From Natronococcus sp. CG52 (GTDB lineage Archaea > Halobacteriota > Halobacteria > Halobacteriales > Natrialbaceae): a DNA stretch of 64,000 nt. The position numbers and the translations under genes are program-made. Under the pieces are notes generated by a model. The model was given only the letters and a program-made list of their open reading frames with translations, searched no databases and was not told the origin of the DNA. Shown piece after piece: positions 16,225-61,636 of the stretch. The first letter of the stretch is position 1; each line of letters starts with the position of its first letter. The stretch is from NCBI RefSeq assembly GCF_023913515.1, contig NZ_CP099391.1, positions 1,302,001 to 1,366,000 of the forward strand. Direction: 5' to 3'.

Positions 16225-16441
16225 GCGCCACAGGCGCGAGCGGGCCGACGACCGATGTGAGCGAGGACGAAGGACGAGCGAACGGAGGGAGGAGCGCTTT
16301 TGATCAACCTTTTACTGAGTGCCGACGCGCCGTGTGGCAGCTACGCTGCCGTCGGCGCGGAACAAACGTGGTTCGAGACGCCTTCGGCGTTTCGTCATCG
16401 CGAGAGAGCTCTGCTCTCTCGAACGACAGAGTAAAAGGTTG
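16225..16441. repeat. Triloop-hairpin element 1 with 12-bp terminal inverted repeat
   Basis: Within the 370-bp spacer between rnp3 and the tbsP stop are four perfect inverted repeats, each with a 3-base spacer: 16225-16237 (5 bp, ACA), 16336-16350 (6 bp, TAC), 16378-16390 (5 bp, TTC) and 16401-16421 (9 bp, TCT). The last three lie inside a perfect 12-bp inverted repeat, CAACCTTTTACT at 16305-16316 and AGTAAAAGGTTG at 16430-16441, whose right arm touches the tbsP stop codon. The 9-bp stem CGAGAGAGC recurs unchanged in element 2 at 60764. No protein-coding signal was seen here. Confidence 0.75.
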
Positions 16442-59551: not shown

Positions 59552-60517
59552 ATGACCGAGGAAGAGGAGGCCGAACTCGAAGAGCAGGCCGATGACGTCG
59601 ACGAGAACGCAGACGACGCCGCCGAAGCCGAAGGGCTTCAGGCCGGCGACTTCATAACGCTCGCCTACACGGCGTACACCGTCGAAGATGATCAGTTGGT
59701 CGACACGACCGACCCCGACGTTGCCGAGGAGGAAGGGGTCGACGACCAGGCGGAGGAGTTCGAGCCGCGCACGCTCGTGCTCGGCGAGGGTCACATCTTC
59801 GACGAGGTCGAAGAAGAGATCATCGGCAGCGAGGTCGGCGACTCCGGCACAGTGACGATTTCCGCCGAGAACGCCTTCGGCGAGTACGATCCCGACGACG
59901 TACAGACCGTCAGCGCCGAGAAGATCGACGAGGACGACCGGTACCCCGGCGCGAACGTCCAGATCGACGGCAAACAGGGCTACATCAGCACGATCGTCGG
60001 CGGTCGCGCTCGCGTCGACTTCAACCACCCGCTGGCCGGCGACGACGTCGAGTACGAGTACGAGATCGTCGACGAAGTCGACGACGTCGAACAGCAGGCC
60101 GCCGGCCTGTTCGAGATGTACCTCGGCATGGAGCCGGATCTCTGGATCGAGACCGACGAGGTCGAGGAAGAGGTCCCCGTCGAATCCGACGAGGATGAGG
60201 ACGAGGACGCCGAACCGGAGTTCGAGACCGAGATCGTCGAGAAGGAGACGCTCTACCTCGAGGCCACGCCCCAGATGACGATGAACCAGCAGTGGATGAT
60301 GGGCAAACAGCAGATCGGTCAGGACGTCATCGACAAACTCGGCGTCGACCGCGTCATCGTCCAGGAGATCATCGACGGCATGGGCGGCATGGGCATGCCC
60401 GGTATGATGGGCGGTATGGGCGGCGCAGGCGGCGAGGCCGACATCGAAGAGGCCCTCGAGGACGCCGACGTCGACGCCGACGAGATCGTCGAAGAGCTCG
60501 AAGGCGCCGAAGAGTAA
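59552..60517 (+). CDS. FKBP-type peptidyl-prolyl isomerase, SlyD-like
   Basis: A 321-residue acidic protein of the archaeal FKBP family. The FKBP domain (about residues 30-170) shows the FITLAYTAYTVEDDQLVDTT strand pair, the insert-in-flap (IF) domain region with AFGEYDPDDVQTVS, and YPGANVQIDGKQGYI. An acidic hinge follows, then a C-terminal helical part with a methionine- and glycine-rich stretch (GMGGMGMPGMMGGMGGAGG), perhaps a metal or membrane interaction site. ATG 59552 is chosen; a TATA-like ccttaaatg (59521-59529) lies 27 nt upstream. Confidence 0.86.
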   Translation: MTEEEEAELEEQADDVDENADDAAEAEGLQAGDFITLAYTAYTVEDDQLVDTTDPDVAEEEGVDDQAEEFEPRTLVLGEGHIFDEVEEEIIGSEVGDSGTVTISAENAFGEYDPDDVQTVSAEKIDEDDRYPGANVQIDGKQGYISTIVGGRARVDFNHPLAGDDVEYEYEIVDEVDDVEQQAAGLFEMYLGMEPDLWIETDEVEEEVPVESDEDEDEDAEPEFETEIVEKETLYLEATPQMTMNQQWMMGKQQIGQDVIDKLGVDRVIVQEIIDGMGGMGMPGMMGGMGGAGGEADIEEALEDADVDADEIVEELEGAEE

Positions 60518-61009
60518 CGACGCAGTTTCTTTCAGTTTTCGCCGTTCGTTCGTCGACCACTGCTCGCTCCGCAGCGCGACCGCCGGCGGGTTTCTCCCGA
60601 CTGGATAAGCCACGACGGGCGGTAATGAAAGGGGCGTTCCGTCTCGAGGAACCCGGACGAAGTCCTCGCGAACGGAGTGAGAGAGGGGGCAGCGAGACGG
60701 TACGCGTCTCGCAGAGCAAACACCGCAGGGAGGGAGTCCTGCGACCGACCGAGGCGCGTGGTTCGAGAGAGCTTGGCTCTCTCGTCACTGAGCGGAGCGA
60801 AGCTCCGCGAGGTCGTCGGGCGGCACTGCCGCCCGACTGCAAGCGATTCCTTCGGAATCGTCCAGTCCAAAAGAGCGCGAAGCGCTCTTTTGAAGATCAC
60901 GAAAATCGAAGATTTTCGAACGACAGCGAATCCCGGGAGTCGAGACGGAACGGGGCTTTCGACACGTTCGTAGCGGAACGGTGCGGGGCCCGTTCGACGA
61001 CGAAACCGA
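60518..61009. other. Convergent spacer holding triloop-hairpin element 2
   Basis: About 490 bp between the stop of the FKBP gene and the stop of the RAD55-like gene. It contains no supported coding frame. Its central 155 bp (60764-60918) are the hairpin array; weaker inverted repeats without the 3-base spacer occur at about 60693-60713 and 60724-60742. The flanks on both sides are ordinary GC-rich sequence. Confidence 0.55.
60764..60918. repeat. Triloop-hairpin element 2
   Basis: Six perfect inverted repeats follow each other in 155 bp, all with a 3-base spacer: 60764-60784 (9 bp, TTG), 60792-60808 (7 bp, GAA), 60815-60836 (10 bp, ACT), 60844-60860 (7 bp, TTC), 60868-60892 (11 bp, GAA) and 60900-60918 (8 bp, GAA). 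The first stem, CGAGAGAGC, is identical to the last stem of element 1 at 16401-16421. Flanking words CGTGGTTCGAGA and TCGAACGACAG also occur in element 1. Confidence 0.82.
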
Positions 61010-61636
61010 CTAGGCGATGTCGCGACTCGTGTCGATCGCGACCTCCTCGGTCAGTTCGAGTTTGATCGCCTCGGTCGGCTGCCGTCCGCTGCGGAACTTC
61101 GGGATGGAGAGGTGGTTCTCGAGTTCGCTTCCGGTGATCTCGGTCCGGAGGTCGAAGACCGCGTCGGCGGCGTGGTGGGTCCGCATCCTGTTCGTCGGCT
61201 CGGTCTCACCTTTCAGACAGTGCAACACCGCGATACCGTCGGTTTCGAGCATTCTCGTCTTGAGATCGTTGAGGAAAGCGACGTAGTCGTTGGCCTCAGC
61301 CTGCTCGAGGACGTCGGCCGTGTCGACGATGAGGTTCGCCCCGTCGGGAAGCGCCCCGACGAACCGTCTGGCTTCCTCGAGCGGCGCGTCACCCGTCACG
61401 TGTCGGACCGTCGGACTGCCGACCGTCGACGGGGAATGTTCAAGTGCGTGACGAATCGATTCGGTGGATCGCTCGGTCGTCAGATAGAGCGTTCCGCGTG
61501 CGGCCGTCAGCTCGTACAGCAGGAGCTCGGACTGGCTGGCCGGATCGGCCGTGAACGCGACGATACAGCCCGGCGGCACACCTCCGTCGAGCTTCCGATC
61601 GAGCACGTCGATCCCCGTCTTCAGCCGACCCACCAT
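61010..61636 (-). CDS. RAD55/KaiC-like protein with degenerate Walker A
   Basis: A 208-residue RecA-superfamily protein of the haloarchaeal RAD55/KaiC type. The N terminus VGRLKTGIDVLDRKLDGGVP matches the family entry. The P-loop position reads TADPASQSELLLYEL, where the GxxxxGKT of active members is lost, so ATP binding is doubtful. A Walker B-like strand NLIVDTADVLE follows. ATG 61636 is chosen because a TATA-like box (minus-strand gaattatacagag, 61661-61673) lies 31 nt upstream; a longer frame exists. It may be a regulatory relative of the KaiC-like ATPases. Confidence 0.75.
   Translation of the reverse strand: MVGRLKTGIDVLDRKLDGGVPPGCIVAFTADPASQSELLLYELTAARGTLYLTTERSTESIRHALEHSPSTVGSPTVRHVTGDAPLEEARRFVGALPDGANLIVDTADVLEQAEANDYVAFLNDLKTRMLETDGIAVLHCLKGETEPTNRMRTHHAADAVFDLRTEITGSELENHLSIPKFRSGRQPTEAIKLELTEEVAIDTSRDIA

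Follow-up and report, generated by a model that had tools for sequence, protein, structure and literature searches.

Element 2, which lies between two convergent genes in the window (the whole stretch of Natronococcus sp. CG52 DNA that was analysed, 64,000 nucleotides), is probably one copy of a small mobile DNA cassette without genes, in which two perfect hairpins with conserved single-stranded joints make up the unit; we put the probability of this at about 0.7. On the best reading it is a transposase-free, REPIN-like mobile cassette that behaves like the SMR-A repeats of Haloquadratum.

Hairpin elements of the window

The six perfect triloop hairpins originally seen at positions 60764 to 60918 are all present and all perfect. 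Compared to 20 first-order Markov versions of the window, in which any 167 bp held at most three triloop hairpins (stem of at least 6), element 2 has six in 167 bp. As the sequence-only reading had it, the stem CGAGAGAGCnnnGCTCTCTCG is common to both elements with different loops, occurring exactly twice in the window (loop TCT at 16401, loop TTG at 60764); at up to three mismatches, 0.31 matches are expected, and two matches were obtained in just 3 of 100 shuffles. The words CGTGGTTCGAGA, TCGTCA and TCGAACGACAG are likewise each found in element 1 and element 2. The flanking genes do converge: a plus-strand ORF ends at 60517 and a minus-strand ORF ends at 61010, encoding a putative FKBP-like PPIase and a putative KaiC-like protein, respectively, as named from their translations.

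Element 2 is larger than first noted. Its core (60758–60924) is situated within a 334-bp palindrome-bounded element (60627–60960), and the window element is a host palindrome, host B, carrying a core. The features, all given on the plus strand, are as follows.

60627–60647 (+): 5′ arm of the host-B palindrome, GAAAGGGGC plus the 12-bp arm GTTCCGTCTCGA; the same architecture has other 12-bp stems in other species
60664–60717 (+), boundaries approximate: extra ~54-bp insert in the left half of host B, with hairpin GCGAGACG-gtacg-CGTCTCGC, recognised by comparison with host-B copies
60758–60924 (+): core (presumed mobile), six-hairpin form GTGGTT ... AACGAC, with the imperfect terminal inverted repeat GT[GC]GTTCGRRA
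60764–60784 (+): hairpin H1, CGAGAGAGC-ttg-GCTCTCTCG
60785–60791 (+): conserved linker TCACTGA
60792–60808 (+): hairpin H2, GCGGAGC-gaa-GCTCCGC, first hairpin of the internal cassette
60809–60814 (+): conserved linker GAGGTC
60815–60867 (+): nested pair, H3 (60815–60837), TGCAAG, H4 (60844–60860), TCCAGTC
60868–60892 (+): hairpin H5, CAAAAGAGCGC-gaa-GCGCTCTTTTG, second hairpin of the internal cassette
60893–60899 (+): conserved linker AAGATCA
60900–60918 (+): terminal hairpin H6, CGAAAATC-gaa-GATTTTCG
60940–60960 (+): 3′ arm of the host-B palindrome, TCGAGACGGAAC plus GGGGCTTTC
16305–16316 (+): 5′ arm of the host-C outer stem, CAACCTTTTACT, enclosing element 1
16368–16427 (+): element 1, a minimal two-hairpin core (H1 16374–16394, TCATCG, H2 16401–16421, AACGAC)
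16430–16441 (+): 3′ arm of the host-C outer stem, AGTAAAAGGTTG; core-free in five congeners

The H1 stem of element 2, CGAGAGAGC, has one further occurrence in the window, in element 1 and with another loop. The window copy is of the CTGA/GAGGTC type described below, with an additional pair (H3–H4) set in the middle joint; this pair is missing from a related four-hairpin copy at C1:3782384. The ~54-bp piece breaks the left half of host B between GACGAAGT and AACACCGC.

Extent and composition of the family

A blastn search with the region and its flanks against the genome of origin (4.74 Mb, three contigs) returned 38 places, many of them built on a single grammar, GTGGTT-[hairpin]-TCATCA-[hairpin]-AACGAC, with or without extra hairpins in between. 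With a covariance model for the 5′ module, ~25 loci were located in this genome, so the further copies that a repeat family would have are indeed present; across the class Halobacteria, the model found copies in 189 of 242 genomes and 64 of 73 genera. With 1857 matches, a loose pattern of this module did not discriminate. When genomes were drawn phylum-wide, none outside the Halobacteria matched, and all 28 positives came from the same order. An exact-pattern scan with named organisms gave matches almost all from Halobacteria, plus one from a Clostridia MAG (L104) that we assume to be contamination or chance. The core was not matched in phage records; one weak phage match, in a mycobacteriophage capsid gene, was taken as chance. 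The sequence-only reading, which favoured a repeat family (mosaic, mobile or recombining) over two unrelated terminators, is supported by the copies found genome- and class-wide, by filled and empty sites and by nesting.

The core measures 55–177 bp, holds no transposase gene and is too short for coding. Copies reside on the chromosome and on plasmids, and their ends are constant while their flanks are not. Imperfect terminal inverted repeats, GT[GC]GTTCGRRA, are found at both core ends, and the unit is joined as GT[GC]GTT-H-TCATCA-H-AACGA[CG], where H is a hairpin. Little change is seen in the joints or in the proximal stem, which is CGAGA at H1 and CGRRA at the last hairpin (for CGAGA this is partly a selection effect, since it belonged to the search pattern), whereas the distal stem and loop vary freely. 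Loops had been expected to be exchanged, and they do differ, but the variation is better put as distal stem and loop varying freely on fixed linkers and a fixed proximal stem.

Perfectly parsed copies with both ends intact have two, four or six hairpins, and those counted with one or three include an imperfect hairpin. Internal additions are therefore pairs, with joints of their own. One type reads CTGA-H-GAGGTC-H-AAGA (in reverse, TCAA-H-GGACCTC-H-TCAG), a second TGCTC-H-TCGCAGGTT-H-CT, and a third TAGCA/TTGCA, which is duplicated in tandem in locus L178. A stem vocabulary is common to different loci. Two identical copies with identical flanks, at C2:5174 and C2:362434 of the genome of origin (G000), lie on one 393-kb replicon, which suggests a duplicated segment.

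Sequences of other kinds adjoin some cores. Another repeat (CACTGAAAGTCGGTGCACACC...GTTTCAGTGGTTACTATAG) stands next to the cores of L015, L016 and L017 and looks like a separate MITE-like family. The Halorubrum cores L059, L060 and L074 adjoin tandem units of ~60 bp with GGCTGGGGCTTTGG and TTTATAA. At L068, L070, L125 and L020, cores lie in hairpins whose arms resemble the T-arm/3′-end of a tRNA (GATTTGAAC...GTTCAAATC), beside tRNA-like sequence.

Host palindromes and orthologous sites

Cores sit within the loops or arms of other palindromes, of which there are at least three host types, each also found in a core-free version. The flanks pair over at least 9 bp in 28 of 73 copies, compared with 5.3 for swapped partners and 1.8 after shuffling. 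In host A, the core is placed in the loop of CTCGGGGTCAAG^CCCCGAGG (also read CTCGGGGTCAAG^CCCCGAGGCACTCGGCCTG, with ^ marking the joint), a sequence that is intact in 29 of 116 genomes. Since the ORF upstream of host A coincides with PF01797 matches (e.g. G106:C25, G062:C14, G059:C4 and G092:C3), host A is the right end of IS200-type elements, the right-end hairpin receiving the core.

Host B is an element of ~100 bp, GAAAGGGGC-stem...GCGCAGCGAG...stem-GGGGCTTTC. Core-free forms measure 96–107 bp and those with a ~60-bp core 152–166 bp, mostly joined at GCG^CAGCGAG; further hairpin pairs are set in host B at other positions, also in the other orientation. Host B had no Rfam match at the gathering threshold. 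Bounded by GGGTGGGACT before GAAAGGGGC and by TGGCTGTT after GGGGCTTTC, it is itself a widespread haloarchaeal palindrome, and substitutions in its 12-bp outer stem are compensatory. Host C is the AACCTTTTAC...GTAAAAGGTT stem (TTTTAC/GTAAAA) that surrounds element 1. A C and a G are conserved a few bases outside the joint, but host families are over-represented in the sample, and the flank conservation comes partly from these repeated families.

Comparison of the element-1 spacer in nine congeners showed the core in G000, G003, G005 and G008 and none in G001, G002, G004, G006 and G007. Two hairpins are present in G000 and G008, four in G003 and G005. The break is always at the same G^C or G^T, and target duplication is absent. 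Thus, the empty site of G007, aacaagcG^CAGAGTAAAAGG (gcggaacaagcG^CAGAGTAAAAGG), corresponds to the filled site of G000, aacaaacG-TGGTT...AACGA-CAGAGTAAAAGG (gcggaacaaacG-TGGTT...), and the empty site of G002 and G006, gatagaccG^TAGAATAAAA, to the filled site of G003, gatagaccG-TGGTT...AACGA-CAGAATAAAA. On a two-gene tree, parsimony by hand requires at least four changes at this site. The H1 and last stems are the same in G003 and G005, but the hairpin pair inside them is inverted in one relative to the other.

Three congeners have the PPIase/KaiC-like spacer in which element 2 lies. Elements with different inner hairpins are found in G000 and G004 and none in G008, where the difference spans most of host B, not just the core. 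The possibility that identical elements are fixed at orthologous sites is thereby set aside: presence and absence are exact, and stems and whole internal pairs differ.

Relatives, mobilisation and alternative explanations

Three kinds of known repeat invite comparison. The SMR-A repeats (HqIRS42/43/55) of Haloquadratum walsbyi are portrayed in the relevant parts of a 2011 report as three families without sequence similarity, ~110 bp long and from one species; they are transposase-free, with inverted ends and no target duplication, inserted in palindromes near the termini of PATEs and IS605-type elements, and their mobilisation is called "enigmatic" there (PMC3119063). When tested for these features, our core proved to have no transposase gene, inverted terminal repeats and no target duplication, and its location in such near-terminal palindromes holds for host A, one of at least three host types. 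It differs in being one family that reaches across 64 genera; its hairpins number 2n, its joints are constant and its stems vary, and its host palindromes are of several kinds, the SMR-A repeats being compared by description only. The 52-bp terminal-only form among the PATEs and IS200-IS605 terminal-only elements, as outlined in that report (PMC3119063), resembles host A; however, PATEs carry IS605 ends, whereas the core ends are unrelated to that end and are situated inside it.

REPIN/BIME elements with RAYT transposases are described, in the sections of the literature dealing with their structure, as intergenic, non-autonomous inverted hairpin doublets with a GT(A/G)G-like head that are excised as a unit and whose spacers show compensatory changes (PMC3116915, PMC2817692, PMC3733652). 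An inverted hairpin doublet is also the unit here. In contrast to REPINs, a GT(A/G)G head is not present on both hairpins (the core has GTGG on the left and GTCG on the right), and the genome of origin has no associated RAYT/Y1 transposase (PF01797). REP sequences, as characterised in those sections, vary little within a genome and are linked to a RAYT, whereas the core stems vary; nor do those sections describe REPINs nested in hairpin loops (PMC3116915, PMC2817692, PMC3733652).

We propose that folded single-stranded DNA is the form in which the cassette moves or is exchanged. A trans-acting enzyme may recognise the joints and the feet of the hairpins, in the way that Y1/HUH enzymes read IS200 and REPIN ends; a Y1/HUH enzyme would be the natural analogue of the mobiliser. 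Growth to four and six hairpins would follow from later insertion of further pairs into the central joint. The mobiliser may be another recombinase, a Y1 that has since been lost, or template switching during replication.

It is possible, though not probable, that the core is a bona fide REPIN/IS200 miniature mobilised by a specific Y1 (RAYT-like) transposase that is, or recently was, in the lineage. The GTGG/GTCG heads and the inverted doublet resemble REPINs, target duplication is absent, and host A is an IS200-type end, several intact examples of which adjoin Y1 transposase genes. Y1 genes occur in 165 of 242 genomes and copy number is slightly higher where they are present, an association that is weak (Mann-Whitney p = 0.04). 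However, a Y1_Tnp (PF01797) profile search gave no match in the genome of origin or in G005, with controls detected, and 11 Y1-free genomes hold at least seven copies. Moreover, stem conservation of the kind seen in REPs is lacking, no fixed target tetranucleotide stands 5′ of the joint, and among the loci read there is neither a Y1 gene flanked by core ends nor any other autonomous, gene-bearing copy. TnpB-type genes are present; TnpB is not a transposase. Plasmid "transposase" neighbours were considered as autonomous copies and rejected, the core lying in both at the 3′ end of the annotated transposase gene, not around one.

Similarly possible but not probable is a mobility that is addressed by structure and needs no dedicated transposase. 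Template switching at the replication fork, or a host enzyme not yet described, would copy or paste folded pairs into other hairpins' joints, so that hairpins nest in hairpins class-wide.

Somewhat less likely, the palindromes are immobile, homologous recombination reshuffling between strains the alleles that have or lack the core or have swapped inner pairs, and gene conversion carrying hairpins from locus to locus. Haloarchaea recombine freely, inner pairs differ or are inverted at one site, and different loci draw on the same stem vocabulary; precise excision would leave filled and empty sites too, as would allele exchange through homologous recombination, which is possible at single sites. 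Nevertheless, allele reshuffling leaves unexplained the same clean G^C joint in unrelated hosts, and the constant ends amid non-constant flanks and the spread over chromosome, plasmids and 64 genera likewise speak against it.

Pairing of the stems is strongly maintained. Across 19 cores of equal length, pairing in the two stems reaches 98.6%, and double-change cells number 45 compared with 14.9 after shuffling (0 of 500 shuffles as high). Hairpins are perfect in 261 of 298 cases, H1 being biased to perfection by the way copies were found and the last hairpin less so. Selection on an RNA strand would be expected to leave more G.U than A.C on that strand. Counted by strand, mismatches in 2704 pairs were 19 G.T and 16 A.C (p = 0.74), and 12 and 7 for the last hairpin alone. 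Since G.T and A.C are equally rare, pairing is kept at the DNA level rather than in a single RNA strand; read most simply, it is in DNA that the pairing has a role or is restored.

Near-identical four-hairpin copies in the genome of origin (L012/L015 and L021) have unchanged stems and loops in inverted forms (gtc/gac, aga/tct). Such reverse-complemented loops are what spacer inversion by template switching would give; template switching between arms homogenises the arms and inverts loops, according to the portion of a published account that treats it (PMC8604942). Arm-templated repair synthesis (quasipalindrome correction) could re-perfect stems and flip loops of the cassette.

A structured RNA or a bidirectional terminator/3′-UTR element, with hairpins acting in the transcript and stems covarying under RNA-fold selection, is not supported and appears very improbable: the strong covariation, the conserved joints and the position of element 2 between convergent ORFs are in its favour, but neither strand has a G.U excess, the core is cleanly absent at orthologous sites and is found within IS200-type ends, the element region has no Rfam match (a tRNA is the sole match in the window), and ten annotated plasmid sites are not confined to convergent spacers (three convergent, of which two are orthologous, three divergent and four same-strand, from an incomplete gene table).

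Covariation that is strong yet free of RNA-type wobble bias cautions against taking intergenic hairpins for structured RNAs because they covary. Small repeats inserted in palindromes were earlier reported in one species (2011); the family described here extends the phenomenon to a whole class, is defined by sequence and has exactly delimited empty and filled sites, which makes the mechanism testable in laboratory haloarchaea.
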